44,911 nt of DNA, from NCBI GenBank assembly GCA_031279695.1, contig JAITIA010000193.1:1-44911 (forward strand), written 5' to 3'. This DNA comes from Prevotellaceae bacterium. GTDB lineage: Bacteria; Bacteroidota; Bacteroidia; Bacteroidales; UBA932. Below, one piece after another: positions 1,095 to 37,414 of the stretch; within the stretch, counting starts at the first letter, position 1; each line of letters opens with the position of its first letter. The position numbers and the translations under genes were made by a program. The notes under the pieces were generated by a model. It was not told the DNA's origin, ran no database searches, and worked only from the letters and a program-made list of their open reading frames with translations.

Positions 1095-2402
1095 ATGATG
1101 AAAAAATTAAGTAAAATATTTTTGTTGATAGCGCTGGCTGCGGCGCTGGCAGGCTGCGGTCGCCCAAACAGGGGTGGCAATACGGCGGTCGAAGGAAAGG
1201 ATACTGTTAAAACAGAGCAAATCAAGCCCTTGATAAATGTTTATATCGAAAATTCGGGAAGTATGGACGGGTATGTCAAAGGTAATACCGAATTTAAAGG
1301 CGCTATTCGCGATTTGTTGGTGATGCTTAAATATCATTATGATGAAAGCAATATAAAGATTTTCTTTATCAACAGCGATGTGCATCCGACGGCAACCGAT
1401 ATCGATTTGACAACCTTTGCGCAGGTGATAAATGTGCACTGGAGAACAGGTAACAGAAGTAATACCAATCTGAACCATATCTTTAAAATGATATTGGACA
1501 AAACGGATAAGCGCACTGTGTCCCTGCTGTTTTCCGACTGTATCTATTCCATTAAAGGCACCGATACGGACGGTTTGCTGAGCAGCGAAAAAAGCCTGAC
1601 CAAGGACGCCTTTCAGTCGAAATGGAAAACAGATTCAATTCCGCTTGCAACAATAATTATGAAAATGAAATCGAAATTCGACGGAACGTATTATCCTTAT
1701 ACAGGGTCGGGTACGAGTTTTTCGGTGAAGAAGGAACTGCCATATTATATATGTATAGTTGGCAACAATAATATTATGCACGATTTCAACAAAACTATGG
1801 AGTTGAAAAAAGGTAAAATAGAAGGTTTTGAAAACAAATATATTCTGTCGCCAAGCAAATCGACGGATATTTACTGGTCGGTGTTGCAAACCTCGTTCAA
1901 TCAGGGACGTTTTAAACCCGACAGAACAAAAAGCGGAGCCGATTATATTCACGGCATCGAGGACGTAAATCTCACAAGAGGCGTCAATCAACTGAGTTTT
2001 GCCATTGCCGTCGATTTTAGCGAAATTCAGGAGGAAAACGATTATATTGTCAATCCGGCAAATTATGCGGTAACAACCGATAATTTTACTGTTACAGAGA
2101 TTGCTCCAATCGACAAAAGTAAAATAAAACCGAACGACTGGAACCGCATCGGCAAAAACAATCCGACGCATGTCATTATTCTGGAAGCCAAGAGCAAAGC
2201 CGCTTCCAGCCTTTCGCTGGCGCTGCAAAAACAGACGCCTCAATGGGTTATGGAGAGTAACACCGAAGACGATACCTCGCCGGAAAAACTGGGGAGTAAA
2301 ACCTTTGGGCTGAAATACTGGGTTGGCGGTATTACCGAAGCCTTTCAAAAAATTTATCCACACGATAAAAACCATTTCGAATGTTCAATTTCAATAAAAT
2401 AA
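1095..2402 (+). CDS. vWA-like lipoprotein, first gene of the tubulin/actin/motor operon
   Basis: A 435-residue predicted lipoprotein. A hydrophobic signal ends in the lipobox LAGC with the modified Cys at residue 21. A von Willebrand A-like fold follows. The strand VYIENSGSMDGY (residues 49-60) aligns with the MIDAS motif DxSxS, but with Glu52 for the usual Asp. The third MIDAS Thr is probably T124 (NTNLNHIF), and the SD strand is TVSLLFSDC near 141-149. vWA domains usually bind partner proteins through a metal ion, so a scaffold role at the envelope is likely. The C-terminal half (about 190-435) is unrecognised. Adjacent ATG codons at 1095 and 1098 make the start ambiguous by one residue. 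The next gene begins 21 bp downstream. Confidence 0.7.
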   Translation: MMKKLSKIFLLIALAAALAGCGRPNRGGNTAVEGKDTVKTEQIKPLINVYIENSGSMDGYVKGNTEFKGAIRDLLVMLKYHYDESNIKIFFINSDVHPTATDIDLTTFAQVINVHWRTGNRSNTNLNHIFKMILDKTDKRTVSLLFSDCIYSIKGTDTDGLLSSEKSLTKDAFQSKWKTDSIPLATIIMKMKSKFDGTYYPYTGSGTSFSVKKELPYYICIVGNNNIMHDFNKTMELKKGKIEGFENKYILSPSKSTDIYWSVLQTSFNQGRFKPDRTKSGADYIHGIEDVNLTRGVNQLSFAIAVDFSEIQEENDYIVNPANYAVTTDNFTVTEIAPIDKSKIKPNDWNRIGKNNPTHVIILEAKSKAASSLSLALQKQTPQWVMESNTEDDTSPEKLGSKTFGLKYWVGGITEAFQKIYPHDKNHFECSISIK

Positions 2403-2423
2403 TCAATTAAAAAATAAATAATT

Positions 2424-2831
2424 ATGAATGATTTTTTTGCTTTTCTTTATGAAACATTGTCGTATCTGAATACTTTTTCGGACGATATGTACAACACAAA
2501 CGCCTACGTGCCAACGGGTCTGAGCTCAGTAGCCATCTCTCTGGCAGGGATGACCATTTATTACTATCTTATCAATCATCCGCGCCTGAACCGCTGGTTT
2601 CACTGGTTTGGAATGTCGCTGATACTTGCCGTAATCAATTTCGGCATTGCATGGATAATGAGCGACAAGGCTCTGTTTGCGCTTTATTCCGAACAGGGAC
2701 AGGAAATGCCCTACGGCTACGAAATATTTACTTTTTCGCTGATAAACGCAGTGTGGACGCTGGTGTTCAATTTTGTGTTTTCGATGATAATAAAATGGTG
2801 GAGCCGCAATTGCGATCATACGCCCTTTTAA
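2424..2831 (+). CDS. Small integral membrane protein of the operon
   Basis: A 135-residue protein of no recognised family. Three hydrophobic segments are visible at about residues 30-50, 58-80 and 98-122, and the protein ends in a short basic tail (KWWSRNCDHTPF). No lipobox or cleavable signal is apparent. Its place between the vWA-like lipoprotein and the tubulin-like gene, with 21- and 56-bp gaps, suggests it is an inner-membrane component or anchor of the same assembly. The ATG follows an A-rich spacer typical of this genome. The coding call rests on length, hydrophobic pattern and operon position. Confidence 0.7.
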   Translation: MNDFFAFLYETLSYLNTFSDDMYNTNAYVPTGLSSVAISLAGMTIYYYLINHPRLNRWFHWFGMSLILAVINFGIAWIMSDKALFALYSEQGQEMPYGYEIFTFSLINAVWTLVFNFVFSMIIKWWSRNCDHTPF

Positions 2832-2887
2832 TCGTAATTTTTACAGACAATTATAATGAATATGAATTTTTTAAATAACTAAAACAG

Positions 2888-4336
2888 ATGAATAAATTAT
2901 ATGTAATAGGAATAGGCGGCACAGGCTCGCGAGTATTGAAATCGCTGACAATGCTGCTGGCTGCCGGCGTGAAAATCAACGCCAGCGAAATAGTGCCGAT
3001 AATTATTGACCCCGACCTTGCCGCCGGCGACCTGGAACGCGCAGTGAGCCATATCCGCAATTATTGTAAAGTGTATGATGCGCTTGATCATAATACGGCA
3101 AGCAGTAATACGTTTTTTGGGACAAAAATAAATACCAGCCTCATCCCTTCGCTGCGCATTCCGGTGAAAAATACGGCGGATGTTGCATTTAAAGATTTTA
3201 TCGGGCTGGCGCTGATGAAGGACGATAAGGCAAACTACAACGCCAACCATGCTTTGGCTTCGATACTTTTCTCTGAACGAAATCTCGACTCCACTATGGA
3301 GGTCGGCTTTAAGGGCAACCCTAATATTGGCAGCGTGGTGTTGAATCAGTTCTCCTCGTCGAAGGAGTTTAAGGATTTGGCTGAGGCAGTCAAAAAGGAC
3401 GACCGTATTTTTATTATCAGTTCCATTTTTGGAGGCACAGGCGCCGCCGGCTTCCCGCTGCTGGCAAAGGAAATACGGAAGGAAAAGTCGAAGGACGAAA
3501 ATGCCGCCCTGCAAAATGTACCCATTGGCGCCGTTACCGTACTGCCCTATTTCGACGTCAAAGCCGACGAAAACAGCGAAATAGACTCTACTCCGTTTTT
3601 CTCGAAAACCAAGGCGGCTTTGTCGTACTACAAAAAAAACCTGAACGAGGTGAACGTGATGTACTATATTGGCGATAAACCCTCGAACCTGTATGCCAAC
3701 TCGGAAGGCGGAGCCGAGCAACGCAACGACGCGCATTTTGTGGAATTGGCGGCAGCGCTGGCTATCATCGATTTTGCTCAATATGGCGACGCCGATTTTC
3801 CGGTACACGAAGGCAAACTGCAACACAGCTCAATATACAAAGAGTTTGGGATAAAAAACGAGGCAAAACAAATTACTTTTGGCGATTTGGACGAAACAAC
3901 AAACCTCATTGTGAAAAAGCCGCTGACGCAGTTTACTCTGTTTTGCAAATATCTGAACGAACAGATTAACGACTCGCTCAAACAGCCCTGGGCTCTGAAA
4001 CACAAATTCGACGAAAACTTTATGACCTCAGCTTTCTACCGCTCCAATTTAAAGGCAGTGAAGGACGCCTATATCGAATGGCTGAGCGAAATGAGCGCCA
4101 ACAGCCGCGCATTCACCCCCTTCCTTTTGGCGGAAAACAAATCGAATGTCTTTGCGCTGATAAAGGACGAAAAACCTAAAAAATCGTTGATTGGAAAATC
4201 GAACTACTCGTTGTTCGACGATGTGCTCAACGACAAACAGCGCAACCTGAATGCCAGCGCATCGCAGCCGCAGCTCTTTATGGAACTTTTTCATGCGGCA
4301 ACACAGAAACTTGTTAAATCAAAATTTAGAATGTAA
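2888..4336 (+). CDS. Tubulin/FtsZ-like GTPase (Tubulin_2-like)
   Basis: This 482-residue protein has the nucleotide-binding landmarks of the tubulin/FtsZ superfamily in the right order. A T1-like loop, GIGGTGSR, lies at residues 8-15 after a hydrophobic strand. A strand then leads to FGGTGAAGFP at 181-190, which corresponds to the GGGTGTG tubulin signature (T4 loop). It resembles the divergent 'tubulin-like domain' proteins rather than cell-division FtsZ. Such proteins bind GTP and can polymerise, but activity has to be inferred here. The C-terminal 200 residues show no FtsZ-type tail. Eight bases separate it from the actin/Hsp70-like gene, so the two are probably co-translated. No membrane segment is seen, so it should be cytoplasmic. 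Confidence 0.75.
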   Translation: MNKLYVIGIGGTGSRVLKSLTMLLAAGVKINASEIVPIIIDPDLAAGDLERAVSHIRNYCKVYDALDHNTASSNTFFGTKINTSLIPSLRIPVKNTADVAFKDFIGLALMKDDKANYNANHALASILFSERNLDSTMEVGFKGNPNIGSVVLNQFSSSKEFKDLAEAVKKDDRIFIISSIFGGTGAAGFPLLAKEIRKEKSKDENAALQNVPIGAVTVLPYFDVKADENSEIDSTPFFSKTKAALSYYKKNLNEVNVMYYIGDKPSNLYANSEGGAEQRNDAHFVELAAALAIIDFAQYGDADFPVHEGKLQHSSIYKEFGIKNEAKQITFGDLDETTNLIVKKPLTQFTLFCKYLNEQINDSLKQPWALKHKFDENFMTSAFYRSNLKAVKDAYIEWLSEMSANSRAFTPFLLAENKSNVFALIKDEKPKKSLIGKSNYSLFDDVLNDKQRNLNASASQPQLFMELFHAATQKLVKSKFRM

Positions 4337-4344
4337 ATATTATT

Positions 4345-7300
4345 ATGAGTTACGTATTTAGACTACACAATCAGGGAACAAAAAACCTTATCGGCTGGGA
4401 TGGCGACGACACAACCCAGTATGGCGACAATGTGATAAAGGAAATAAGCGACAGCTCGCCCAAAAGCGAAATAACCTCCATTCCCTCGCCTTTTGCACGA
4501 ATCGACCTGTTTAAAACCGCCTTCAGAAATGTGGTGAAACTGTGCCGAGAAACAGGAGTGCGACATGTACCCTTAGACGGTAATACCATTTATCATAAAA
4601 TGGTGTCCGCCTGCCTCGACGTCGGGCAAATATTTTTTGAGTTCGAAAAACATCAGGACAAACTGCAAATTCTGGTCTGGGACAAAGAAGGCGATTTGAA
4701 TACCCTGCTGGCTTCGTCGCATTCCGAGCATAAGCAACTTGGCGAAACATACAAAATATTTCTCGAATGCGACCGCGAAACCTATCATTTCGACCGGATG
4801 AACAGAATATTTCTGCTGAATTTAAAGGACGGTCCGGCAGAAATGAATATCATTGGCGCAACCTCGCCCGCCACGCTCTTCTTTTCGCCCGCAAACGACC
4901 TGAATTATGTGGGTAAAAGCATTCAGTTTGGCAATCACAAACCTTTTGGCGACCAGTTGTGCCCGCTCTACAAACGCGACTACGAGTATCAAAAATACTG
5001 GTACCTGCTGCGCAAAACTATTCCCCAGTTCGAGAAACTGTTTCCCGAAGTGGAAGACTATCTGGCAGAATGCCTGAAAAATGTGGACGCCAACGTGAAA
5101 AATTCACTCGCCGGTCAGTTGAATCCGAAGGATATTGAAGTATATTCAAATATCGACCTTAGTTCAATTAACGATTATGTGCATGTGCTCAACAATATCC
5201 CGCTGAAACAGCTCAAATCGAAACCGGAAGAGATTGAACAGACCAGCGGCTTTGTGGTGCAGTCGGATTACAAAGTAAACGGCGTGCGTCCCTTGATTTT
5301 GCCTGTCAGCGAATATCGCCGCGACACCCGATATACAAAAGATACATGGAACAATAAGAACAGAGCGCCATACGAAGATGCAGATCCGAAAACAAAAAAA
5401 GTGCGTCCGCTGGCGGATAGAACACTGCCTTTCGACGGAGCAAAATATCCGTATATCACAATCAGCGATTTGCTGACCGATACCATTGTGCGCATGCCCT
5501 ACGAAATGAACAGAGAACATTTTTTCCATGGAAATATCGAAAAAGCCGGCGGCAAAAGTTATCTGCTGCCGCTGAAAGACCTGTTTTTTCAGATGTTTAC
5601 TCCCCAACAGTTGAGAGAGGGAATAAACGGGCAAAAAATGTTTGAACTCCAAACCAATACCGGAGGAATTACCGCCGTTCTGCGTATTCCCGTACGGGAT
5701 AATATCTTTATCGAATACCGGCGCATTTATTTTGAAGCCCAGCAGCCAAATATTGCAAAGAACGACGGCGCTCTGATAGAAGAAAGTTTTGGACTGGGAA
5801 TTATGCCTTTAGGCAGGTTTGCCGACAATGAACATAAACACTACCGCATTGCCCTGTTTGAAAAAGGGCAGGGCGACCTCCGCCTCGAATGTTACGACGG
5901 CAATCGGCAAATTCCGGCAACGGCGCAGGTGGTGAAACGAAAAAAGGACCTTGGCATGGATGCATGCAGCATAGAATCGTACGTTGTGAACGACAATTTC
6001 GACAGAATAAAAGTAAAAATCGGCGACAAAGAAAACGTGATTGTTCCCATCTACAAAGTTCCCCAAACAAAGAAAAATTTCACCTTTGCGGTGGACTTTG
6101 GAACAACCAATACTCATATTGAATGCAGCGCCGACAAGGGAGCAACCAGCGTTTCCTTCGACATGACTGCCGGTGAAACACAGCTGAAACGCCTGCATCT
6201 GACCTACGCCTCCGAGCCTGATATTGCCAACGCTTTTGTCGATAATTTTGTTCCGACAACAATATCCGACAGCGGCGAATATTTCTATCCAATGCGCACC
6301 ATTCTTGCCGAACAGGGCAATATTGACTACACAAAAGCGCCCCATAGCCTTGCCGACGCAAATATTCTGTTTATTTATGAAAAATTGCGCGTGCCTCAAT
6401 ATTTCAAGCAGGATTTGAACACCGACTTGAAATGGACTATAAAGGACAAGGGACAGGTGCAACTGTATATGGAAAATCTTTGTCTGCTGATGCGCAACAA
6501 GGTATTGCTGAACGGAGGCGCGCTGGAAAACACTAAAATTATCTGGTTCTATCCTGCCAGCATGACCGAAGGGCGATGCAATAAATTGAAGAAAATATGG
6601 GAAGACCTGTATAAAAAATATTTTGGCGACAATCTCGCCAACCTTATCTGCATGTCGGAGTCGGAAGCCCCCTATCATTATTTTGCAAAAAAACAGGGCG
6701 CATTTTCCAATGTGGTAACCATTGATATTGGCGGCGGAACTACCGACGTATATATAATTGAAAAGCGCGAGCCCAAACTGCTGCTCTCGTTCCGCTTTGC
6801 CTCCAATGCAGTGTTTGGCGACGGCTACAACTGGGATTCGGACAACAACGGCTTTGTGAAACTTTATGCAGAAGAGTTTCGGAAAATGTTGGACGACAAC
6901 GGACAACAGGAATTGGGGCAAGTGCTGTCGCAGATAGAAGCGAAAAAAAACTCGCCCGATATTATTGCATTCCTGTTTTCGCTGGCAACCAATATGAGAA
7001 CAAAGGACAACAAATCGCTGAATTTTCTCGACAAACTTGCCGACAACGACAGGCTGAAATATGTTTTTATTATTTTCTATTCCGCCATTCTCTATTTTGT
7101 TGCCAAAACCATGAAGGCAAAAGGCTTGGAACAACCATTGACACTGGCTTTCAGCGGCAACGGCTCAAAAACACTGAGAATACTCTCGAACGACAAAAAC
7201 ACTGTAGGCAAATTTGCCAAACTGATTTTTGACGGCGTTTACGGAACTCCAACCACCAGCATAATGGATGTTAAAATGGAAGACGAGCCTAAAAAGGCAA

Positions 7301-7788
7301 CCTGCAAAGGCGGCATTCAAAGCAAAAGTGAAACCAGCGATTTCGACGCAACCGAGAAAATAAAATATGTGCCCACCGGCAAGGACTGGTGTCTGGGCGG
7401 AAGCAGCGGAACGGACGAAAAAATTTCCTATTCGGAAATTACTCCCGCAATGGAAAAGCAGGTGGAAGACGCCGTTGTCGATTTTGTGGAATTTCTGTTC
7501 AAACTGCACCGCGACAACGATAATTTCCTTGTTAAAAAATTTGTTGCCGACGGCGGCATTACCCAATCGGTAAAGGATATTTGCTCCAACCGCAGTGAGT
7601 TGAAAGAATTTCTTACTCTGGGCTTAAACCGCAAATATGAAGAAATTGCCGGACGACCCTTTGACCAGATAAAAAAAGAAAATTTGATAGAAAATCTGAA
7701 AAAGGACAATAAAATAGAGGAAACTCTGTTTTTCTATCCTTTGCTGGGAATACTCAATAAACTTGCCCGTGAAATCAGTAATTTGTAA
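4345..7788 (+). CDS. Large protein with C-terminal actin/Hsp70-like ATPase domain
   Basis: An 1147-residue cytoplasmic protein. The C-terminal half carries the actin/Hsp70 signatures in order. Phosphate-1 is AVDFGTTNTH near residues 581-590, phosphate-2 is TIDIGGGTTDVY near 792-803, and an adenosine-type motif AFSGNGSKTL lies near 935-944. A further VADGGITQ occurs in the last quarter. These place it in the ASKHA ATPase superfamily. It could act as a chaperone-like switch or a filament former. The N-terminal 570 residues have no family I recognise and contain no membrane segment, so this is an unusual fusion several hundred residues longer than DnaK or MreB. It lies 8 bp after the tubulin-like gene and 23 bp before a membrane coiled-coil gene. 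Confidence 0.75.
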   Translation: MSYVFRLHNQGTKNLIGWDGDDTTQYGDNVIKEISDSSPKSEITSIPSPFARIDLFKTAFRNVVKLCRETGVRHVPLDGNTIYHKMVSACLDVGQIFFEFEKHQDKLQILVWDKEGDLNTLLASSHSEHKQLGETYKIFLECDRETYHFDRMNRIFLLNLKDGPAEMNIIGATSPATLFFSPANDLNYVGKSIQFGNHKPFGDQLCPLYKRDYEYQKYWYLLRKTIPQFEKLFPEVEDYLAECLKNVDANVKNSLAGQLNPKDIEVYSNIDLSSINDYVHVLNNIPLKQLKSKPEEIEQTSGFVVQSDYKVNGVRPLILPVSEYRRDTRYTKDTWNNKNRAPYEDADPKTKKVRPLADRTLPFDGAKYPYITISDLLTDTIVRMPYEMNREHFFHGNIEKAGGKSYLLPLKDLFFQMFTPQQLREGINGQKMFELQTNTGGITAVLRIPVRDNIFIEYRRIYFEAQQPNIAKNDGALIEESFGLGIMPLGRFADNEHKHYRIALFEKGQGDLRLECYDGNRQIPATAQVVKRKKDLGMDACSIESYVVNDNFDRIKVKIGDKENVIVPIYKVPQTKKNFTFAVDFGTTNTHIECSADKGATSVSFDMTAGETQLKRLHLTYASEPDIANAFVDNFVPTTISDSGEYFYPMRTILAEQGNIDYTKAPHSLADANILFIYEKLRVPQYFKQDLNTDLKWTIKDKGQVQLYMENLCLLMRNKVLLNGGALENTKIIWFYPASMTEGRCNKLKKIWEDLYKKYFGDNLANLICMSESEAPYHYFAKKQGAFSNVVTIDIGGGTTDVYIIEKREPKLLLSFRFASNAVFGDGYNWDSDNNGFVKLYAEEFRKMLDDNGQQELGQVLSQIEAKKNSPDIIAFLFSLATNMRTKDNKSLNFLDKLADNDRLKYVFIIFYSAILYFVAKTMKAKGLEQPLTLAFSGNGSKTLRILSNDKNTVGKFAKLIFDGVYGTPTTSIMDVKMEDEPKKATCKGGIQSKSETSDFDATEKIKYVPTGKDWCLGGSSGTDEKISYSEITPAMEKQVEDAVVDFVEFLFKLHRDNDNFLVKKFVADGGITQSVKDICSNRSELKEFLTLGLNRKYEEIAGRPFDQIKKENLIENLKKDNKIEETLFFYPLLGILNKLAREISNL

Positions 7789-7811
7789 AATTTTTTAAAA
7801 TCGAAAAAAAC

Positions 7812-9806
7812 ATGAAAACAAGAGTATTTTTCTGGTCTATGTTATTTATTTTGTGCAGCGTCGCAGGCGCTGCACAGAATAAAATAACTCAAGAAACATT
7901 TAACAAATTGGTTGATTATGCTAATTGTATGTATGTGAGAGGTTATATGGAGGCGAATTATAGAAAAACCCCTGATACGCTCATACAAAATCATAAAAAC
8001 AAAGTTATAGATAGACTTAATCAGTGTTCTCTAAACGATACAGCCACTATAATAGCAGATACTGTGTTATTTAGGTTATTGAAAGATAATAAAAACGGAA
8101 AAGAAAATGAATTAGCACAATATGTTAATAAACTAAAAAACAATTTTAAGACCGATTTGTCTAATTGTGATTTGATATATCTATTACTACCAGAATCATA
8201 TAACGAAATTCGAAGTATAAATAATGCGTGGAAAGCCTTGAAAAAAGAACTTAATGATATATATTGTTCTGACAAAAATAAAGAAGCGGCAGCAACAAAG
8301 ACAACAGAGACAAGTGGAAATCAGCAGACGCTATCAGACCCGTCACCAGATAATAACGACCAACTGAAACGAGCAATCGAAGCAATCAAAGAACAGATTT
8401 ATGAAATAGTGCTAAATGTTACATCCACTATGTGCAAGGCTGGGATAGAGGCTGTAGGAGCGAGCTGGAGTACAATCAAAAAAGAATTTGCAAAAATAGA
8501 AGACGCACTCAAGCTGGTGTCATACATACAAAGCAATACTCTCTCTCAAAAAGCATTATATGCCGCAAACCAAGAATTAGAGAAAGAATTAGAGAAAGCA
8601 AAAAAAGCAAAAGAGAATATATTTACTGCATTAACGAAGAAAGACAATGGCTATCCATGGTCGGAAATTGGGAATATGACCCTTCAAATTGCGTCGTTGA
8701 TTATTGTGTTTTTGATTGTAGTGTTTTTTAGAAAAAAAATATGGCAGTTTTTTAGAGAAAAAGTATGGCAGTTGAATAAAGACCGAACAGTTAAAGACAG
8801 AATCAAAGCAATAAAACAAAACATCCAAACAATGGAATCTGAATACAAAAAAAATACATCTGGCAACCACGAGTTGTCCGAAAAAATTAAAACATTAAAA
8901 GAAGAATGCGAACAACTAAAAAAAGACCATCCTTCGTATTTTTCTAAAATCAATCCGATAATCGAACACTTAAACACATTCCTGAAAACGTTGAATAACA
9001 CAGACAGTGAGTCGTTAATTGAAAATTTGGAAAAAGCAGTCGAAGAAACAAAAACTAAAACAGAAGAATTAGTCGGGCAATTAGAACAAAACAGGGAAAC
9101 TATAGACGCAAAAAGGTTGGAAATAAATCAGTCGAGAGAAAAACTCAACCGATTAAACAATGAAAATCTAACAAGTAATTCTGTACTCCCAACAATCGAA
9201 TATTTAAAAATAGGCGAGGCAAGCATGCAAAATACTATCAAAGAAATAGATGAGTTGAAGAAAAAAATAGAAGAGTTAAAAGCGGAACTCCAAAAAGTCC
9301 GTCCATATCATTCTAAAACAAACAAGTTAAAAAAACAATTAAATGAAGACGAGGATAGATTGGACAGTGCAATCAAAGTCATAAAGGACTTGAACGCAGC
9401 AATAAAACAAGTGAATGCCGACGTCGATGGCTTGAACACAGAAATAAAACAACTGAACGGGAAGATACAGTACAACCAACAACAAAATACTATTGTAGTC
9501 AATGCAGACTCGCCCGTTTTATATGCGTCGTCGATAAATATCGAAACTATGACATTTAATGCTGTCAGTACAGAGTCAAATGTTAAAACAGTTTATGTTT
9601 TACACAAAAAAGGAACAGGCAGAGCAGAATTTGAGGTTTACAGCGGAGCGTTTGCCAAGGTATTGTGCGAACATCATTTTCTTGTCGGCTGCGATTTACA
9701 GACGCTTGGCAACACAAGAGTTGTAACCACCCAAGCCGGCGTTGCCGAAAAGCAAGACGACGAAACATGGAAAATAACCCAACAGGCAAGAGTACAATTT
9801 GAATAA
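7812..9806 (+). CDS. Signal-peptide, single-TM, coiled-coil protein with C-terminal domain shared with next gene
   Basis: A 664-residue protein. It has a cleavable signal peptide (residues 1-21, SVAGAA then Q) and an extracytoplasmic helical region. One transmembrane segment lies near 289-307 (LQIASLIIVFLIVVFF), followed by basic residues and a long coiled coil (about 325-560, many KKKIEELK-type heptads). The last 100 residues form a compact domain (YASSINIE, EFEVYSGAF, HHFLVGCDLQ) that is nearly repeated in the next gene. The topology therefore spans the inner membrane, with the coiled coil in the cytoplasm. Codon use is visibly more A/T-rich than in the preceding genes, except in the last 300 bp. 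It is probably a structural or tethering subunit. The domain family is not recognised. Confidence 0.75.
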   Translation: MKTRVFFWSMLFILCSVAGAAQNKITQETFNKLVDYANCMYVRGYMEANYRKTPDTLIQNHKNKVIDRLNQCSLNDTATIIADTVLFRLLKDNKNGKENELAQYVNKLKNNFKTDLSNCDLIYLLLPESYNEIRSINNAWKALKKELNDIYCSDKNKEAAATKTTETSGNQQTLSDPSPDNNDQLKRAIEAIKEQIYEIVLNVTSTMCKAGIEAVGASWSTIKKEFAKIEDALKLVSYIQSNTLSQKALYAANQELEKELEKAKKAKENIFTALTKKDNGYPWSEIGNMTLQIASLIIVFLIVVFFRKKIWQFFREKVWQLNKDRTVKDRIKAIKQNIQTMESEYKKNTSGNHELSEKIKTLKEECEQLKKDHPSYFSKINPIIEHLNTFLKTLNNTDSESLIENLEKAVEETKTKTEELVGQLEQNRETIDAKRLEINQSREKLNRLNNENLTSNSVLPTIEYLKIGEASMQNTIKEIDELKKKIEELKAELQKVRPYHSKTNKLKKQLNEDEDRLDSAIKVIKDLNAAIKQVNADVDGLNTEIKQLNGKIQYNQQQNTIVVNADSPVLYASSINIETMTFNAVSTESNVKTVYVLHKKGTGRAEFEVYSGAFAKVLCEHHFLVGCDLQTLGNTRVVTTQAGVAEKQDDETWKITQQARVQFE

Positions 9807-10302
9807 ATTCACTAATAAATTAATTTAAAATAAAAGAATTATGAGTAAAATATGCCCAAATGTGAATTGTAACACAGCAAACCCCAGCGATGCAAACTAC
9901 TGCATAAATTGCGGCGCAGCCTTCTCCAAAGAATCCGGAGAAAAACAAAAAACACATAATATATCGGAACAATTACAAATAGAAATTTTCTCACCACCAC
10001 CGGTTTTATATGCTTCGTCGATAAATATCGAAACAGAGACATTTTATTCTGTTACTGCGGCAGCGGACGACACAACAATTTATCGTCTGACAGTAAGAAA
10101 AGGAACGAGCACGGCAGCAGAATTTGAGGTTTACAGCGGAGCGTTTGCCAAAGTATTGAGTGAACATCATTTTCTTGTCGGCTGCGATTTACAGGCGCTT
10201 GGCAACACGAAAGTTGTAACCACTCAAGCCGGCATTGCCGAAAAGCAGGACGATGACGAAACATGGAAAATAACCCAACAGGCAAGAGTACAATTTGAAT
10301 AA
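9511..10302 (+). repeat. Recent intra-operon duplication of a ~100-codon domain
   Basis: The 3' end of the coiled-coil gene (about 9511-9806) and that of the following zinc-ribbon gene (about 9997-10302) are near-identical over their last 180 bp. The match continues past both stop codons into AAATTCACTAAT. The middle of the domain differs more and has small in-frame indels. This pattern suggests recent duplication or ongoing gene conversion. Both copies encode the domain ending in ITQQARVQFE. Confidence 0.85.
9841..10302 (+). CDS. Zinc-ribbon protein with the duplicated C-terminal domain
   Basis: A 153-residue protein with no signal or membrane segment. The N-terminus is a small zinc ribbon (CPNVNC then NYCINCG, residues 5-25), a four-Cys metal site in a C-x4-C / C-x2-C arrangement. 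After a short linker, residues 55-153 match the C-terminal domain of the preceding membrane protein. It may therefore be a soluble counterpart that competes with or bridges that subunit, or an adaptor that plugs the shared domain into the other zinc-ribbon proteins of the operon. A block of five CACTAAT heptamers directly follows the gene. The domain has no known function. Confidence 0.75.
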   Translation: MSKICPNVNCNTANPSDANYCINCGAAFSKESGEKQKTHNISEQLQIEIFSPPPVLYASSINIETETFYSVTAAADDTTIYRLTVRKGTSTAAEFEVYSGAFAKVLSEHHFLVGCDLQALGNTKVVTTQAGIAEKQDDDETWKITQQARVQFE

Positions 10303-10305
10303 ATT

Positions 10306-10340
10306 CACTAATCACTAATCACTAATCACTAATCACTAAT
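10306..10340. repeat. Five tandem CACTAAT heptamers directly before a start codon
   Basis: Units begin at 10306, 10313, 10320, 10327 and 10334, and the ATG of the MotA-like gene follows at 10342. The repeat occupies the whole ribosome-binding region, and no Shine-Dalgarno sequence is present. Loss or gain of a heptamer would change the leader without changing any reading frame. The same heptamer occurs at 16733, 21719 and 33226. Confidence 0.95.
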
Positions 10341-10341
10341 C

Positions 10342-11784
10342 ATGGAATTGCATTATCTAATCATTGCCTCGGTTGTTGTTTTAATTCTGATTTTTCAGAT
10401 TGTAATCTTCTGTTCCAGCCTGCGCAAACAGAAAACCTTTAAAACCGTTTTCCCCAACAAAGACGAGGCTTTTACGCTCGGCAACAGGATTATATATGTC
10501 GATATTGATCCTGTTAATCCGGTGCTGGCAACAATCTGGAAGTCGATTAATAGTTATTTGCGTAATAATTCGGGAGCAGTGAGCGACTATCATCTTATAA
10601 AGGACATTGTGGACAGAAACTGCGACGCCGCCGAAGACGAAATCAGCGCCCAAATTCCCGTGCCGCTCTACTACGGCTTGACGGGAACAATGGCGGGCAT
10701 CCTGATTGGCGTTGGTTTTCTGGTGGAAGGCGGCGGGTTAGACGCCCTTTTGCAATCGTCCAACAGCGGCAAGGGCAGCGAAGGCATACAGGCTCTGATG
10801 GGCGGCGTGGCGCTGGCAATGATTTCCAGCATCGTGGGAATACTGCTGACCACCATCGGCTCATTGCGTTTCAGAACGGCAAAAGCCCGCATGGAACGCA
10901 ATAAAAACGTTTTTCTGAGCTGGATACAAACAACGCTGCTGCCACAACTGTCGAACGATGTGGGCGATATGCTCAATAAAATGGTTGCCAATCTCAGCCG
11001 GTTCAACGAGGTATTTTCGAGCAATACGGGCGATTTGCGGGCGGCGCTCGACACGGTAAACGAATCGGTCAAAAATCAGGCTGAACTGATGACGGGAATT
11101 AATCAGTTGAAAATTCGACAGATTGCCACCGCCAATATAAAGGTTTACGACAAACTGAAAAACTGTACGGCAGAGATTGGACGCTTTGGCAATTATATTC
11201 ACAGCGTCAACGAATATATTGCCAGCGTGCGGGATTTGAACGAAAAATTAGATCGGAACGAAAACCGCACCAAAGCAATTGAAGATATGGCAGTTTTCTT
11301 TAAACAGGAAAAGGAAATATTCGAGGAGCGCCGCGTTGCCATGAATACTGCCGTTGGCAGGATGGACGAAACGCTGCAACGGGCGCTTTCCCAATTGGGC
11401 GACCATACCGAAACACAACTCCGCGAACTGCAAAAAGCAGCCGGCAAACAGCAGGACGCCCTGCAAAGAAAACTTGACGAAACAGGCGTCCTGATTGATG
11501 AACTCAAAAATCTGACCGCCGTAAAAACAGGCGTCAACAGTCTGGAAAAAGCAACGCAGGAACAGAATAAAAAGTTGGACAGACTGATTGTGATAATGGA
11601 AAAAATGGCGGCACAAAAACAGCCGGTACAAAACTTGACCGATGTTCGTCCCACCGATACTTTGACAGAAGAAAATACTGCGAAAAATATCAGTATTCAA
11701 TGGAATTTGAAAATCTTCGTTCTGACAGTCGGCATCCTTATTATATTGATGCTGTTTTATCTAATATTTAATAAATTAATTTAA
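10342..11784 (+). CDS. MotA/TolQ/ExbB-like proton-channel subunit with long coiled coil
   Basis: A 480-residue inner-membrane protein. An N-terminal segment (residues 5-24) is followed by an 85-residue cytoplasmic loop. The two segments diagnostic of the MotA/TolQ/ExbB family come next: YYGLTGTMAGILIGVGFL (110-127) and ALMGGVALAMISSIVGILL (151-169) with the following basic stretch. Residues 180-440 form a long, largely coiled-coil tail, far longer than in ExbB (about 240 residues in total). A final hydrophobic segment lies near 456-477. Such subunits form pentamers around a dimer of MotB-type partners and use the ion gradient for mechanical work. The matching partner is encoded at 15057. The long tail recalls ZorA of Zorya defence systems, but the C-terminal membrane segment differs. 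Confidence 0.8.
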   Translation: MELHYLIIASVVVLILIFQIVIFCSSLRKQKTFKTVFPNKDEAFTLGNRIIYVDIDPVNPVLATIWKSINSYLRNNSGAVSDYHLIKDIVDRNCDAAEDEISAQIPVPLYYGLTGTMAGILIGVGFLVEGGGLDALLQSSNSGKGSEGIQALMGGVALAMISSIVGILLTTIGSLRFRTAKARMERNKNVFLSWIQTTLLPQLSNDVGDMLNKMVANLSRFNEVFSSNTGDLRAALDTVNESVKNQAELMTGINQLKIRQIATANIKVYDKLKNCTAEIGRFGNYIHSVNEYIASVRDLNEKLDRNENRTKAIEDMAVFFKQEKEIFEERRVAMNTAVGRMDETLQRALSQLGDHTETQLRELQKAAGKQQDALQRKLDETGVLIDELKNLTAVKTGVNSLEKATQEQNKKLDRLIVIMEKMAAQKQPVQNLTDVRPTDTLTEENTAKNISIQWNLKIFVLTVGILIILMLFYLIFNKLI

Positions 11785-11792
11785 GAGAAATT

Positions 11793-12269
11793 ATGAGTCG
11801 TGAGTTAAGCAGTGATGAGAGAAAATGTCCAAATTTGAAATGTGAGGCGCCATACGCCGCCACCGCAAATTATTGTTATGATTGCGGCGAAGCCTTATCC
11901 GAAGGAGCCAGAGAAAAACAGAAAAAACAACGGGAGCAGGAAAGGGAATTGAATGCAGCCATTACTAAAATCAACAAATTGGAAGAGAAAAATCAGGGTT
12001 TGGAAGAGAAGATTGACGCTTTGAGAAAAAAAAATGGCATTTTGGAAGAAAGAATTGGCGATTTGAGAAAAACCAATCGAGATTTGGAAAGAAAAATTGG
12101 CGATTTGGAAAAACAGGATCGAGATTTGGAAAAATCAAATAAAGCCCATGACCCAAAGCATAATGAAGAACAGAATAATATTCCTAAATGGTATTATTGG
12201 TCTTTTTTGGGGTTGGCTGTTGGATTTTTAATTTTTTTAATTTTTTTAATTTTTTTATATGAGGGATAA
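11793..12269 (+). CDS. Zinc-ribbon, coiled-coil, tail-anchored protein
   Basis: A 158-residue protein in three parts. A zinc ribbon (CPNLKC then NYCYDCG, residues 13-32) ends in the conserved EALSEGAREKQKK stretch. A regular coiled coil with clear 14-residue periodicity follows (KIDALRKKN, RIGDLRKTN, KIGDLEKQD; residues 55-115). A C-terminal membrane segment lies near 133-156, encoded partly by a 9-bp tandem repeat that gives FLI units. It should be a tail-anchored protein with the ribbon in the cytoplasm. The gene starts 8 bp after the MotA-like gene and overlaps the next gene by 11 bp, so translation is probably coupled. It is probably a linker between cytoplasmic components and the membrane. 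Confidence 0.75.
   Translation: MSRELSSDERKCPNLKCEAPYAATANYCYDCGEALSEGAREKQKKQREQERELNAAITKINKLEEKNQGLEEKIDALRKKNGILEERIGDLRKTNRDLERKIGDLEKQDRDLEKSNKAHDPKHNEEQNNIPKWYYWSFLGLAVGFLIFLIFLIFLYEG
12224..12256. repeat. 9-bp tandem repeat (TTAATTTTT) inside a transmembrane segment
   Basis: About three and a half copies of a T-rich 9-bp unit encode FLI FLI FLI at the end of the tail anchor. Slippage by whole units would change membrane-segment length in frame. Slippage in the T-runs would shift the frame and also alter the overlap with the next start codon at 12259. Confidence 0.8.
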
Positions 12270-13749
12270 AATTATAAAAATTTGTAAACTAATCACGATA
12301 GTAATTCTATGTATAATATTGATAAAATGGGCATTATATCCGGTTTCTGTTGGTATTGTGAGTCGTATCTATTGTTGTGCGTATTTGGGATTTCTTGTTG
12401 GTTGTTTCTTTTTTGTAGAAATACCTCGAATAATAGAGAAATTCAAGAATGGGGAATGGATCGCTATTATTCTTGCTATTAGTGGTCTATTGTCTCCCTT
12501 GTTATTGTTTTCGGAAAATTTAAAAATTCGATTAGACAATACATTTGGAGGAAGAATGAAATATAAAATTGAAAAGATATTTGAAAACAAAGCAGTGAAC
12601 GAAGAACATGTGATATACGGCTTTGATATAACAGAATATAAAAAATCTCCAACGATAGAAGACAACGGGCATTTGCAGCCTTTATATAATCGCTATATTT
12701 CCAATATTGATAGCATTGATAGCAAGGATAGCCTTGTTTTGGTAACGCATCCGGATAGTACAAAAAATATAAAATACAGAGAATTTTCGAGAGCAAAAAT
12801 ATGCGCCGATTTAATCAGGCATCATAAGATGAATAGACAGGGGGCTTTTTCAATATATACAATTGGAACAGAAACTAAACTATTGAACGAAAAATCTAAA
12901 TTTTCAAAAGATAACGTTGAAACTGCTATTCAAAAAATGTTTGAGATTGAATATAAAGACAAAGAAACTCACTTGGAAACATACTACGATACAATATATT
13001 ATATAGTAGGAAAAACAAAAAGAGACAAATATAAATTTGCCAAATATATTTTACATACATACAGCGATTTTGTGCAGGATAAAGGCACACAAAGCACACA
13101 TACAGATAAGGTTAATATAGATAAAATCAGAAAGGGAACAAATCAAAAAAAGGGATTTGGAGATTTGAACATAATAGAAAATTTATTTATTTTGCCACAC
13201 GATAACAAAACAGAACATAACAAAAATGTTGTTATAGATGGCGAAGGTACTTTATACGATAGAAGAATTGATGTTACAAAAGACATTAATACGGATGATG
13301 AGTTTGGCGATGCCATCCATAATATAAAGCATCACAATCATACTTTTTATTATTCTACCCATATAGTCTCCCCAAATATAGAATTCCCTGATGAATTGTA
13401 TCAAATTAAATTACATGGAAAATATCCGGATCATAGCACAGTTAATCTTCAAAACATCGACACAGAAGATGATGAGATTCTGTTGAGTTCAACAACTTTT
13501 GCAAAGATAAACAAAGGAAAATATGCATTTCAAATTAATGGTATTTCTGGCGATAATAAACTTATTACAGATATTGCTCGCGATGATATTCATGTTCGTT
13601 TAGTATTGAATTTGAAGCCAAATAATTTGAATTGGGTATTCAAAATATTTGTTGTTTTGCTTGCTGCAATATGTGGCGCCTGTATTCCGTATTTTTTAGT
13701 TAAATTGTCCAACTATATAAATAATCAAAACACACTAAAAACATCATGA
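12259..13749 (+). CDS. Polytopic membrane protein with probable vWA-like domain
   Basis: A 496-residue protein. Three N-terminal membrane segments lie near residues 8-26, 36-55 and 67-86, and one C-terminal segment lies near 463-486. In the intervening soluble region, VIYGFDITEY (118-127), a Thr at about 237 (KETHLETYYDTIYYI) and YILHTYSD (263-270) fall where the three MIDAS elements of a vWA domain would be, but the first motif is degenerate (DxTxY for DxSxS). The remaining 190 residues are unassigned. The gene is strikingly A/T-rich compared with the MotB-like and tubulin-like genes. It overlaps both neighbours (11 bp and 4 bp). The coding call is sure, the vWA assignment tentative. Confidence 0.65.
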   Translation: MRDKIIKICKLITIVILCIILIKWALYPVSVGIVSRIYCCAYLGFLVGCFFFVEIPRIIEKFKNGEWIAIILAISGLLSPLLLFSENLKIRLDNTFGGRMKYKIEKIFENKAVNEEHVIYGFDITEYKKSPTIEDNGHLQPLYNRYISNIDSIDSKDSLVLVTHPDSTKNIKYREFSRAKICADLIRHHKMNRQGAFSIYTIGTETKLLNEKSKFSKDNVETAIQKMFEIEYKDKETHLETYYDTIYYIVGKTKRDKYKFAKYILHTYSDFVQDKGTQSTHTDKVNIDKIRKGTNQKKGFGDLNIIENLFILPHDNKTEHNKNVVIDGEGTLYDRRIDVTKDINTDDEFGDAIHNIKHHNHTFYYSTHIVSPNIEFPDELYQIKLHGKYPDHSTVNLQNIDTEDDEILLSSTTFAKINKGKYAFQINGISGDNKLITDIARDDIHVRLVLNLKPNNLNWVFKIFVVLLAAICGACIPYFLVKLSNYINNQNTLKTS

Positions 13750-15041
13750 ACATCTGCCCCAAATGTAACACAGCAAACCCCAGCGACACAAATTATTGTT
13801 TTCAATGCGGCGAAGCCTTATCCGAAGAAGCCAAAAGCAGACGTAAGGCATGTCCAAAGTGTAAAACGGAAAATAATATTGACGCAAATTACTGCAAGAA
13901 ATGCAGTACCGCCATTTCCGACGACGCCCGAGAGAAGGAAAAAAATGCACAGAAAAAATGTCCGGAATGTTTCACGGAAAATATCGTCGATGCAAATTAC
14001 TGTAGAAATTGCGGAAGAATATTGACCGACAACAAAGAAGTCCTTGAAATGGATAAATTGAGCAAGGCAAAAGAAACAATTCAACTGCTCAAAAAAGCAT
14101 TCCCCGCAATAGAGGAAAAAAACCGCAATCTGGAAAAAGAAAAAAAGGAACTGACGGAGAAACAGCAGAAACTCACAAAGAAACAGGAGTCTTTGTCGGC
14201 AGAACTGCTGAATGCACAGGTAGAAATTGAATCGCTCAACAACCGGATTCGTCCTTTAAAAAAAGACAGAAACTACTGGATTATATCATTCTTAATAATG
14301 CTGGGTTTATTTGTGACAGTATTAGTATTTCTGATATTTAATCATAACAGTTTATCTGGAAAACAGGAGAAAATAACACAGTTGAGGCAAAACATAGAAA
14401 CGCTTGAACGGAAAAATAAAGAACTTGCCGGAGAAAAAGAAAAGATTGAAAAATTGAAAAGCAATGAGAAAACAAATCTTACAGAATTAAAGAAGAAAGT
14501 AACAGAACTTGAGCAGGCAAATTCACAACTTGTTGATGAAAAAAACAGTTTGACAGAAAAAAACACAGAACTTGTTGATGAAAAAAACAGATTAAAAAAA
14601 GAAAATACACAACTTGCCGATGATAAATCGAAACTTCAAAACCAGATTAATGCGGCTGCGGAATACTGTCCCATTGTGATACAATCAATAAAAGTTTGCA
14701 ATACATATAAAGACGGGACAATAGAAACGGATTACGGCAAAACCATATATGCTTCCAGTTCAATGTTTTTATCTCCTCAAATAGAATATGTCGGCTTAAA
14801 AACAGGTCAAACCATTACGCTGTACACGAAGTTATATGCTGGTAAAATATTACAATATAATGCAAAAGATTCTCTTTCCGGCTATACATATAAAACGGAA
14901 ATAACAGTTTCAAGTACAGGAAAAACAGGCTTGTCCGGTTGGGGCGACGAGAAAAAAGGACATTGGAAAAAAGGCGACTACCGCTACGAAGTCTGGTATG
15001 ACGGAAAACTCCTGAAAAAAATAGATTTTCAATTATATTAA
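13746..15041 (+). CDS. Triple zinc-ribbon, coiled-coil membrane protein
   Basis: A 431-residue protein. Three consecutive zinc ribbons occupy residues 4-95 (CPKC..NYCFQCG, CPKC..NYCKKC, CPEC..NYCRNCG). A coiled coil follows, then a transmembrane segment near 177-199 (WIISFLIMLGLFVTVLVFLI), a second coiled coil with 14-residue repeats (about 210-305), and a C-terminal beta-rich domain. That domain contains IYASSSMFLSPQIEY and GDYRYEVWYDGKLL, a pattern I have seen in other Bacteroidota envelope proteins. The topology puts the ribbons in the cytoplasm and the C-terminal domain in the periplasm, so it could transmit a signal or force across the membrane. The start overlaps the previous stop (ATGA), which indicates translational coupling. 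Confidence 0.75.
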   Translation: MNICPKCNTANPSDTNYCFQCGEALSEEAKSRRKACPKCKTENNIDANYCKKCSTAISDDAREKEKNAQKKCPECFTENIVDANYCRNCGRILTDNKEVLEMDKLSKAKETIQLLKKAFPAIEEKNRNLEKEKKELTEKQQKLTKKQESLSAELLNAQVEIESLNNRIRPLKKDRNYWIISFLIMLGLFVTVLVFLIFNHNSLSGKQEKITQLRQNIETLERKNKELAGEKEKIEKLKSNEKTNLTELKKKVTELEQANSQLVDEKNSLTEKNTELVDEKNRLKKENTQLADDKSKLQNQINAAAEYCPIVIQSIKVCNTYKDGTIETDYGKTIYASSSMFLSPQIEYVGLKTGQTITLYTKLYAGKILQYNAKDSLSGYTYKTEITVSSTGKTGLSGWGDEKKGHWKKGDYRYEVWYDGKLLKKIDFQLY

Positions 15042-15056
15042 TAAAAAAAATAAAAA

Positions 15057-15704
15057 ATGAGTAAAAATAAAAAAGAATCGTTTTTTTGGGCAAGTTATTC
15101 CGACTTGATGACAAGTCTGTTTTTTGTGATGCTGGCGCTGTTTGTCCTGACCGTCGCCTTGCAACACAGCAAAATAGAACAGCAGGCAGTTACTATCGAC
15201 ACATTGGAACGCTTAACGCAAATCGACCGTCAGTTTGAGCCGCTCGTCAAATCGGGCGCGTTTGTATATTATTCGAAAAGCAAAAAATTTGTTGCAAAGG
15301 ATTTAATCGGTCATGAAATATTCGATCCAAACAAAACCGAAATTCTTCCGCAATTTGAAGCCCCAACCATCGCGGTGGGCAAAGCAATCGACAGTCTGCT
15401 AAAACAACTACCGCAGGACAGCTCAAAAATTTCCTATCAATTAGTTATCGAAGGCAATGTGGCAAACAAATGGGATAAAAGTATCGACCAAGACGAGACC
15501 AAGGGCTACAAAATCAGTTACGAGCGGGCGCTGGCAGTATATCTGCTGTGGCTGGCACACGGTATCGATTTGCGCAGTTACAATACCGAAATTCTTATCT
15601 GCGGCAGCGGGTTCAACGGTATGGACAGAGACTCAACAGAAGAAAACAATAAAAGATTTTCGATACAGATAATACCCAAAATAAGTTCACCAAAAGAAAA
15701 ATAA
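15057..15704 (+). CDS. MotB/OmpA-like stator partner
   Basis: A 215-residue protein with the MotB-type plan. A short cytoplasmic N-terminus leads into one membrane segment, FFWASYSDLMTSLFFVMLAL (residues 9-28). Asp16 sits where the ion-carrying Asp of MotB lies, within the S/A-Y-x-D-x-M-T pattern shared with MotB and ZorB. A periplasmic domain related to the OmpA C-terminal peptidoglycan-binding fold follows; its recognisable part is ISYERALAVYLLWLAHGIDL, then ILICGSGFN and NKRFSIQII. It is the natural partner of the MotA-like subunit at 10342, though three genes lie between them. Together they should form an ion-driven stator anchored to the cell wall. Confidence 0.8.
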   Translation: MSKNKKESFFWASYSDLMTSLFFVMLALFVLTVALQHSKIEQQAVTIDTLERLTQIDRQFEPLVKSGAFVYYSKSKKFVAKDLIGHEIFDPNKTEILPQFEAPTIAVGKAIDSLLKQLPQDSSKISYQLVIEGNVANKWDKSIDQDETKGYKISYERALAVYLLWLAHGIDLRSYNTEILICGSGFNGMDRDSTEENNKRFSIQIIPKISSPKEK

Positions 15705-15711
15705 TCAGAAA

Positions 15712-16233
15712 ATGAAAAAAACAGTTTGTATATTGCTGCTTGCAGCATTGATAATTTCCTCGATGCATTCGTGCCGGCAACGGGCAGGGCGCAACAACAG
15801 CCGCTCGTCGAGCAGAGACGCTCAGACAACGGAAACAACGCGCGGCAAAACCGTTGTTAAAATGCGAAAAGAGGGCGGCGTGTATCATGTCCCCTGCAAA
15901 ATTAACGGCGCCGAAATGGAATTTATTTTCGATACCGGCGCCTCCAACATCACAATTTCGCTGGTCGAAGCTCTGTATCTCTACAAGCAGGGAAAGCTTA
16001 AAGACGAGGATTTTCAGGGTACGGCACAATACCAGATTGCCGACGGCAGCATCTCCGAAGGCTCGATTATTCAACTGCGTACAGTAGAAATAGGCGGCAA
16101 AAAACTGACCAATGTCAAAGCGTCCATTGTTCACAACATGGATGCGCCTCTGCTGCTGGGGCAGTCGGCGCTGGCAAAATTCGGCAAAATCTCAATCAAT
16201 TATCAAAAAAACGAAATCATATTTGAACAGTGA
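15712..16233 (+). CDS. Retropepsin-like aspartic protease lipoprotein
   Basis: A 173-residue protein. A signal sequence ends near Cys21 (ISSMHSC), an imperfect lipobox. The mature domain is a single-lobe, clan AA (retroviral-type) aspartic protease. The active-site motif is FIFDTGASNITIS with Asp74, and the C-terminal hydrophobic-hydrophobic-Gly element is APLLLGQSALAKFG. Such single-lobe enzymes act as dimers. It sits 7 bp after the MotB-like gene and ends the operon, so a role in trimming or regulating the envelope components is likely but inferred. Basic, low-complexity residues (RNNSRSSSRD) link the lipid anchor to the domain. Confidence 0.75.
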   Translation: MKKTVCILLLAALIISSMHSCRQRAGRNNSRSSSRDAQTTETTRGKTVVKMRKEGGVYHVPCKINGAEMEFIFDTGASNITISLVEALYLYKQGKLKDEDFQGTAQYQIADGSISEGSIIQLRTVEIGGKKLTNVKASIVHNMDAPLLLGQSALAKFGKISINYQKNEIIFEQ

Positions 16234-19225: not shown

Positions 19226-20047
19226 TTATCTGAATACCCAGCCTTTGGCGGTAGCAATTTCCTGATTACTGTCCTCTGCCGCGCCTCTATTCCCGACCTT
19301 TATTTCTTTGGTAACGCCTGCAAAAGTGTTGCTGTGCAAAGTTGCATACATTGCATTATAAGCCTCGGTTGTCAGAGCCGTCTCCGAACAGTCAATATAC
19401 CTCAATGCGGGGTTATTGCTAAAATTCAGTTCTCTGATGATGTTATGCCAACATTCAAAATGTTCAAGTGCGGGGTTTTTGCTAAGATCTACGCTTGTTG
19501 CGCCCTGTACTCCGACGTTGAGACAGGTCATATTTACTCCTTCAACGGTTACGGTGTGATTGGCGGCGGTTGTTTTAAACTCATGATTAAAATGAGGGTC
19601 TTCAACAGTAATATCCACAGTATCTTTATCGCCGTCTCCCCAGTCGATGATTGCTGTTCCTGTGCCTTTCAGACCCATGTCGATTGAAGAAACCGTTGTT
19701 ACCACTTTCATCTGCATCAGATTAACAGTTACATTAACCGTTGTGGATGTTCCATTGCTTGCGGAGGCAGTAATGGCGGCTGTTCCGGATGCAATGCCCA
19801 AAACCACGCCGTTATTATCGACTGTGGCAACGTTGGTGTCGCTACTTGCGAAATTAATGGTTTTATTTGTGGCATTATCGGGGTACACCGAGGCTTTGAC
19901 AGTGTCCCTTGCGCCAACATAAATGCTCATGGCGTTTCTTTCAACAATCACGCTTTCAACAGGAACACCTTCGTCGTTCTTGTCCTTGCTGCAGGATGCA
20001 AATGCAACAACGCCTGCGATTACCATGTAGAATAAATTTTTTTTCAT
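19226..20047 (-). CDS. Surface lipoprotein with Ig-like (BIG2) and leucine-rich-like domains
   Basis: A 273-residue predicted lipoprotein with a lipobox ending at Cys19 (FASC). Residues 30-108 resemble a bacterial Ig-like group 2 domain (VYPDNATNKTINFASSD, VATVDNNGVVLGIASGTAAIT). A region follows with the PKD-like IDWGDGDKDTVDITV motif and then short leucine-rich-type repeats (VDLSKNPALEHFECWHN, LNFSNNPALRYIDCSE). The C-terminus is the common cap ending in ATAKGWVFR. It is paralogous to the next two minus-strand genes but has the extra Ig domain and fewer repeats. The likely location is the outer membrane or cell surface, with a binding or adhesion role that is inferred. Confidence 0.75.
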   Translation of the reverse strand: MKKNLFYMVIAGVVAFASCSKDKNDEGVPVESVIVERNAMSIYVGARDTVKASVYPDNATNKTINFASSDTNVATVDNNGVVLGIASGTAAITASASNGTSTTVNVTVNLMQMKVVTTVSSIDMGLKGTGTAIIDWGDGDKDTVDITVEDPHFNHEFKTTAANHTVTVEGVNMTCLNVGVQGATSVDLSKNPALEHFECWHNIIRELNFSNNPALRYIDCSETALTTEAYNAMYATLHSNTFAGVTKEIKVGNRGAAEDSNQEIATAKGWVFR

Positions 20048-20119
20048 TACCGATTTGTTTTACTTTTAATTATACATTATTTAGATATAGTTACATTTTT
20101 TATTTTCATCCTGATACAT

Positions 20120-20782: not shown

Positions 20783-20860
20783 CTTAATAATTTTTTACTG
20801 TGCTCAACAGATACGGATAACTGCGTTAAATGTTTCATTTTTGACAGGATTTTTTTCCTC

Positions 20861-21601: not shown

Positions 21602-21718
21602 TACAGATTCTTTTAATTAAAAATACGTTTTTTTTAATCCTGATATTATAGATGTATGTTTGTCGATTTTCGTTGCATGGAGTTTGAAATTTTTTTAATA
21701 TCCTCTTACGATTGCTGC

Positions 21719-21744
21719 CACTAATCACTAATCACTAATCACTA
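21719..21744. repeat. CACTAAT heptamer array overlapping the end of queG
   Basis: Units start at 21719, 21726 and 21733, with a partial unit at 21740. On the minus strand the repeat encodes the last four residues (VISD) and the TAG stop of queG. The array has therefore entered, or defines, the 3' end of the reading frame. Confidence 0.95.
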
Positions 21745-22648: not shown

Positions 22649-22672
22649 TTCCCGAAAAATCAATCAATTACA

Positions 22673-37394: not shown

Positions 37395-37414
37395 TCATTT
37401 AAAATTTATTAAAG

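Follow-up and report, generated by a model that had tools for sequence, protein, structure and literature searches.

Gene content of the locus

The DNA analysed here (the window; 44,911 nucleotides, positions 1 to 44,911 of contig JAITIA010000193.1 of a Prevotellaceae bacterium, assembly GCA_031279695.1) contains at positions 1095-16233 a run of 12 consecutive plus-strand genes, named A to L (Table 1), in which a tubulin-like protein (C) and an actin/Hsp70-like protein (D) are combined with a MotA/MotB-like pair of ion motor subunits (G and K) and a terminal retropepsin-like protease (L). The open reading frame calls gave spacings of -11 to 56 bp with two overlapping pairs, in agreement with the tight same-strand packing described in the initial annotation of this sequence; the gene number given there (eleven) had to be corrected to 12.

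Table 1. Genes of the cluster in the window. Locus names such as L050 denote homologous loci collected from other genomes. TM, transmembrane; MIDAS, metal ion-dependent adhesion site.
Gene	Predicted product	Position	Strand	Basis
A	vWA-like secreted lipoprotein	1095..2402	+	LAGC lipobox, MIDAS-like ENSGSM; family alignment; sequence
B	Small membrane protein	2424..2831	+	Hydropathy scan: 3 predicted TM segments in homologues
C	Tubulin/FtsZ-like GTPase (FtsZl1 / Tubulin_2 family)	2888..4336	+	Pfam, alignments, AlphaFold model, Foldseek
D	1147-aa protein, actin/Hsp70-fold ATPase in C-terminal half	4345..7788	+	Alignments, MreB/Hsp70 profile matches, model, Foldseek
E	Membrane protein with long coiled coil	7812..9806	+	Sequence, domain scan, hydropathy scan, position in homologous loci
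F	Zinc-ribbon protein	9841..10302	+	Pfam Zn_Ribbon_1 6.7e-5
G	MotA/ZorA-like motor subunit, coiled-coil tail, C-terminal TM segment	10342..11784	+	NCBIfam ZorA 1.4e-6 (partly coiled coil), alignment, TM scan
H	Zinc ribbon, coiled coil and TM segment	11793..12269	+	Domain scan; counterpart at equivalent place in L050, L044
I	TM-anchored vWA relative, MIDAS degenerate	12259..13749	+	Homologue in L050 (3e-33); kin of L141:2203-3606
J	Multiple zinc ribbons, coiled coil and TM segment	13746..15041	+	Pfam DZR 2e-15
K	MotB/ZorB-like subunit, pore Asp16, diverged OmpA-like C-terminal domain	15057..15704	+	PADLOC ZorB1 2.4e-9, ZorB structures, residue conservation
L	Retropepsin-like aspartyl protease, probable lipoprotein signal	15712..16233	+	Pfam PF13975 1.5e-16; slot survey

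Recurrence and horizontal transfer of the gene set

Scanning of GTDB genomes identified at least 80 further loci containing C. Over 99 loci, profile matches were obtained for A in 91, B in 92, C in 98, D in 96, E in 87, MotA in 71 and MotB in 63, and the order A-B-C-D-E-MotA-MotB-hydrolase was essentially invariant, being found in most of these loci across Bacteroidota with median spacings of 1.5-14.5 bp; B sits between A and C, and the E matches share one position. Since the identical order is shared by most of the 99 loci, the grouping is not due to chance and the genes form a genuine multi-gene system. C was present in 17 of the 200 family genomes and in 14 of the 395 phylum genomes. Among the 200 family genomes D occurred in 16, all of them within the 17 with C, and MotB in 14, 11 of which also carried C. 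The conservation search suggested in the initial annotation thus found genes that travel together in a fixed order, with D in the family occurring only in genomes that also have C. Gene calls in the related loci were mechanical, TM segments and lipoboxes were called by simple rules, and some loci come from metagenome-assembled genomes, the Bacillota cases among which may be binning errors.

The distribution of the gene set is patchy, and the set has been horizontally transferred. In the phylogenetic tree two Flavobacteriales loci (L089, L104) are nested within a Sphingobacteria clade (support 99/96), and an A-C-D core resides on plasmids of Gloeothece and Picosynechococcus (L134, L135), where the B position is taken by a small gene that the B profile missed and MotAB were not recognisable. 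Seven loci carry a tyrosine integrase gene directly upstream of A, on the same strand and 133-495 bp away; the background is ~113 integrase-family matches in 21 genomes (~2 per Mb), and because the loci are related the comparison does not amount to a formal test. One locus (L060) is flanked by tRNA-Arg and tmRNA genes, few of the 18 loci scanned for tRNAs being informative. Relatives were also found on four virus-classified contigs.

On one virus-classified contig (L145:53-20949) a second Hsp70-like gene comes after a divergent core of the A-B-C-D-E type, and terminase-like and recombinase-like genes lie beside the core (identities of the flanking genes as read from the sequence). A genome of the same genus (G094) harbours three different copies of the C-D core (L023, L038, L039).

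The tubulin-like and actin/Hsp70-like proteins and their partners

C gave Pfam matches to Tubulin (5.8e-7) and Tubulin_2 (28.7 bits, above the 27-bit cut-off). Its glycine-rich loops, GIGGTGSR and FGGTGASG in the window, are well conserved, with the N-terminal GG[TV]G retained in 94 and GGTG[AS] in 96 of 97 homologues. In Foldseek searches of the PDB with the AlphaFold model (pLDDT 87, pTM 0.90) every match at E<=0.001 was a tubulin, although the TM-score was ~0.25; the GTP-binding half of C is therefore predicted to be tubulin-like and the remainder divergent. The same division has been described for FtsZl1 (Makarova and Koonin 2010, PMC2875224). At 482 amino acids, C is too short for the central long coiled coil of FtsZl1, and helices make up most of its C-terminal third in the model.

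Sequence searches with D returned only short matches around the phosphate loop, together with MreB/Hsp70 profile matches. Both of its motifs are conserved, the DFGTTNTH type in 85 and the DIGGGTTD type in 82 of 88 homologues, and an alignment-based AlphaFold model (pLDDT 86) matched Hsp70, MreB and actin in Foldseek (E 2e-8, probability 1.0). The tubulin-like protein (as regards its GTPase half) and the actin/Hsp70-like ATPase named in the initial annotation were thereby both confirmed, structure prediction having pointed to both folds.

Two vWA-like proteins had also been proposed. One of them, A, retains the motif: the family alignment shows an invariant Met/Gly in the MIDAS-like ENSGSM and a conserved Asp148. 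The other, I, has lost the MIDAS motif, but its relatives include a TM-anchored VWA_2 protein that lies between MotA and MotB in another locus (L141). All three expected zinc-ribbon proteins (F, H and J) were recovered with Pfam. Over their C-terminal ~95 residues, E and F (window 7812-10302) are near copies of each other, the mark of a recent partial duplication.

The motor subunits

Compared with solved structures, the MotB profile gave its best match to ZorB of the Shewanella type I Zorya system (8VVN, 1.9e-11), followed by 8QYD (2.9e-7), with flagellar MotB behind. Among 61 homologues the pore residue Asp16 is conserved in 60, Arg157 of the LSYERA motif in 60 and Arg200 of the NQRF motif in 57. 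The pore Asp and residues of the peptidoglycan-binding site are required for Zorya defence (PMC11890865).

Most MotA-like copies combine TM segments and a long coiled-coil tail with a closing TM segment, for which we know of no counterpart in ZorA. A PDB profile search with MotA gave only coiled-coil noise, e.g. apolipoproteins, so the kinship of this subunit is based on position, TM layout and weak ZorA matches (for G, Table 1; for a sister MotA, PADLOC ZorA2 1.8e-8, also partly coiled coil). The MotA/MotB-like pair of the initial annotation can thus be retained, with the correction that the stator resembles the anti-phage ZorB type rather than the flagellar one.

The motor is a frequent but separable component. 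Both subunits are present in ~47 of 61 uncut loci, and the tubulin tree requires at least 9 changes between presence and absence of the motor. The proposal of an extended FtsZl1 system, in which filament-forming nucleoside triphosphatases (NTPases) are coupled to a stator, accordingly holds in so far as C and D travel with the stator, but the stator is not an obligatory part.

The exchangeable hydrolase slot

The position after MotB is usually occupied by a small lipoprotein whose enzymatic domain varies: (i) a retropepsin-like aspartyl protease, as in the window, (ii) Trypsin_2, or (iii) Endonuclease_NS. Many loci add a second lipoprotein gene behind it, with an SNase, Endonuclease_NS or Exo_endo_phos domain. 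At least 9 exchanges of protease type can be counted along the tubulin tree, L110 and L111 being close relatives that differ in this way, and a protease also comes after A-E in the motor-less loci L094, L095, L103 and L046. This swappable lipoprotein protease/nuclease slot is a new feature that is invisible from one locus. L is indeed retropepsin-like and probably a lipoprotein (Table 1), though its lipobox (SMHS-C) is atypical; within the slot, the retropepsin is one option among several.

The stretch that follows the lipobox Cys is basic in two unrelated protease families (mean net charge ~+2.6, versus -0.25 in neighbouring lipoproteins), with CSRSGRR, CAHKSGHR and CKRPNR as examples from loci with aspartyl or serine proteases. 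In an N-terminal identity test the tags of the two families matched at 24.9, compared with a mean of 17.1 (maximum 20.5) for flanking lipoproteins and 22.2 (maximum 24.5) for shuffled tags. Because shuffled tags were surpassed only modestly, most of this likeness reflects shared basic composition. The tags are perhaps a common sorting or docking signal.

Sister stators and neighbouring genes

Three MotB loci of the family genomes lack the tubulin gene (L137, L138, L139), and these sister stators provide the strongest contextual evidence for a role in defence. Two of them (L137:3641-7647 and L138:9174-13867) encode a DarT ADP-ribosyltransferase, DUF6939, MotA and MotB, with an additional trypsin-like protease in L138. 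DarT is a known anti-phage toxin, and this operon type looks like a motor-coupled DarT toxin system. In the third (L139:4911-10631) a ZorB-like MotB and a MotA-like gene have a GajB-like helicase on one side and a TmtA-like protein on the other; it is possibly another motor-linked defence locus.

Elsewhere in the window, a minus-strand gene run at 19226-23548 encodes proteins with leucine-rich/Ig-like repeats, followed by QueG-like and RHS-repeat proteins, and a TonB-dependent receptor/SusD-like pair at 34281-39415 represents an ordinary nutrient-uptake locus of Bacteroidota.

Relationship to known systems

Two relevant associations are already known as predictions: the FtsZl1-vWA-OmpA operons, regarded as membrane-remodelling systems (Makarova and Koonin 2010, PMC2875224), and the GTPase-centric conflict systems with tubulin and HSP70 (Kaur et al. 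2020, PMC7159879). The combination with a motor and hydrolases appears to be new. With FtsZl1 operons, whose family already included Bacteroides, the present set shares a tubulin-superfamily GTPase, a vWA partner and an OmpA-family protein. It differs from them by its conserved actin/Hsp70-fold partner, its ZorB-like ion motor and its swappable lipoprotein proteases and nucleases, as well as by the absence from the set of a P-loop GTPase or kinase and of the usual long coiled coil in C. In a literature search of incomplete coverage, neither this combination nor a link of FtsZl1 with a ZorAB-type motor or with lipoprotein nucleases was described in any paper.

As in Zorya types I and II (PMC11890865), MotB has a pore Asp and a peptidoglycan-binding domain, and the MotA-like protein appears to share the long coiled-coil tail. 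Unlike in Zorya, this tail ends in a TM segment in most copies, the cytosolic partners are tubulin/actin-like and the hydrolases are lipoproteins. No Zorya effector (ZorC/D, ZorE or type III partners) was detected by PADLOC in 10 window proteins (F and J lay outside the scan) or by Pfam in all 12, and assignment to Zorya was rejected on this ground.

The conflict systems resemble the present set in that tubulin, HSP70-type ATPase and vWA genes occur in variable, effector-bearing operons; in contrast to them, DO-GTPase and GAP1 were not recognised here, and the main text of the paper describing them never mentions MotA, its single 'zora' string being an author name (PMC7159879). Pfam detected no P-loop GTPase among the 12 window proteins, with no separate check made using GAP1 models; with the GTPase partner not found, this assignment was also rejected. 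SNIPE, a membrane-associated nuclease that cuts phage DNA during injection (PMC13190303), is similar as an idea; its proteins are different, and the nucleases described here are lipoproteins in a motor/cytoskeleton operon.

Proposed function

Judged by its genomic context (gene set, folds, gene order, motor residues, hydrolase swapping, mobility and defence neighbourhoods), the system is probably, though by no means certainly, an envelope defence against phages or other mobile DNA, with a Zorya-like trigger and lipoprotein hydrolases as the acting part. Several observations weigh against such a role. The motor is missing from about a quarter of the uncut loci and so cannot be the sole trigger, and the window encodes only an aspartyl protease, lacking a nuclease. 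The location of the lipoproteins outside the inner membrane is a prediction from sequence only, and it would place the nuclease differently from Zorya and SNIPE, which act from the cytosol or inner membrane. Among 114 flank proteins restriction-modification and PADLOC candidate genes occur singly, a count for which there is no matched control. Finally, C and D had no match in 50,697 phage genomes, a result expected of host defence and not diagnostic of it.

A housekeeping role in membrane remodelling or envelope maintenance, in which the cytoskeletal NTPases would shape the membrane, the motor would pass force to the wall and the lipoprotein proteases would trim envelope proteins, appears unlikely. 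It would continue the proposal made for the vWA/OmpA-like/FtsZ-like association (PMC2875224), and the motor and peptidoglycan-binding domain are compatible with force transmission; the swapping of proteases and addition of nucleases, which have no obvious role in membrane shape, argue against it, as does plasmid carriage. We favour defence because of the patchiness and transfer of the gene set, the integrases, and the sister stators linked to DarT and Gabija-like genes.

The swappable lipoprotein hydrolases could also be surface or delivered enzymes of a weapon or secretion machine directed against other bacteria, or serve in nutrient or DNA scavenging. This is improbable: the conserved set lacks immunity-gene pairs, a secretion pore and a transporter, and the post-Cys tag is basic, whereas the surface-export signal of Bacteroidota lipoproteins is acidic. 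Least probable is abortive infection, with the infected cell killed by ions leaking through the motor or by tubulin/actin polymers at the membrane and the hydrolases acting as accessories; the conserved pore Asp of an ion-channel subunit and the multimerising effector role proposed for tubulin and HSP70 in predicted conflict systems (PMC7159879) would suit it, but variation is greatest in the hydrolase slot, where effectors are expected, and its protease persists behind A-E even where the motor is missing.

For the defence role, the following mechanism can be envisaged. The MotA-like and MotB-like proteins would form a Zorya-type 5:2 ion motor, with MotB gripping peptidoglycan. By analogy with Zorya, disturbance of the wall by a phage would cause the motor to bind the wall, admit ions and turn its coiled-coil tail. 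The tail may then induce assembly of the cytosolic tubulin-like GTPase and actin/Hsp70-like ATPase, for which B and E presumably serve as membrane anchors. The assembled state would license the lipoprotein module outside the inner membrane (A, the terminal protease and, where present, a lipoprotein nuclease, as in many loci). Near the site of DNA entry, these proteins might break down both the ejection apparatus and the DNA on its way in; SNIPE demonstrates that a defence can work by cutting DNA while it is being injected (PMC13190303). That the complete chain operates as a new immune machine, from an ion-driven wall-sensing motor through cytosolic tubulin/actin assembly to an exchangeable outer protease-nuclease pair destroying phage DNA in the periplasm ahead of its entry into the cell, is a tentative proposal, somewhat less likely than not.

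The FtsZl1 tubulins, whose function has been an open question since 2010, thus gain a concrete and testable context: a mobile, motor-coupled envelope setting with a near-universal actin-fold partner. The results further suggest a general role for ZorAB-type motors as triggers that are combined with unrelated effectors, such as the DarT toxin, the tubulin/actin core and Gabija-like neighbours. If the defence reading is true, cytoskeletal NTPases would be linked to an ion motor for immunity, and phage DNA would be destroyed on the periplasmic side.

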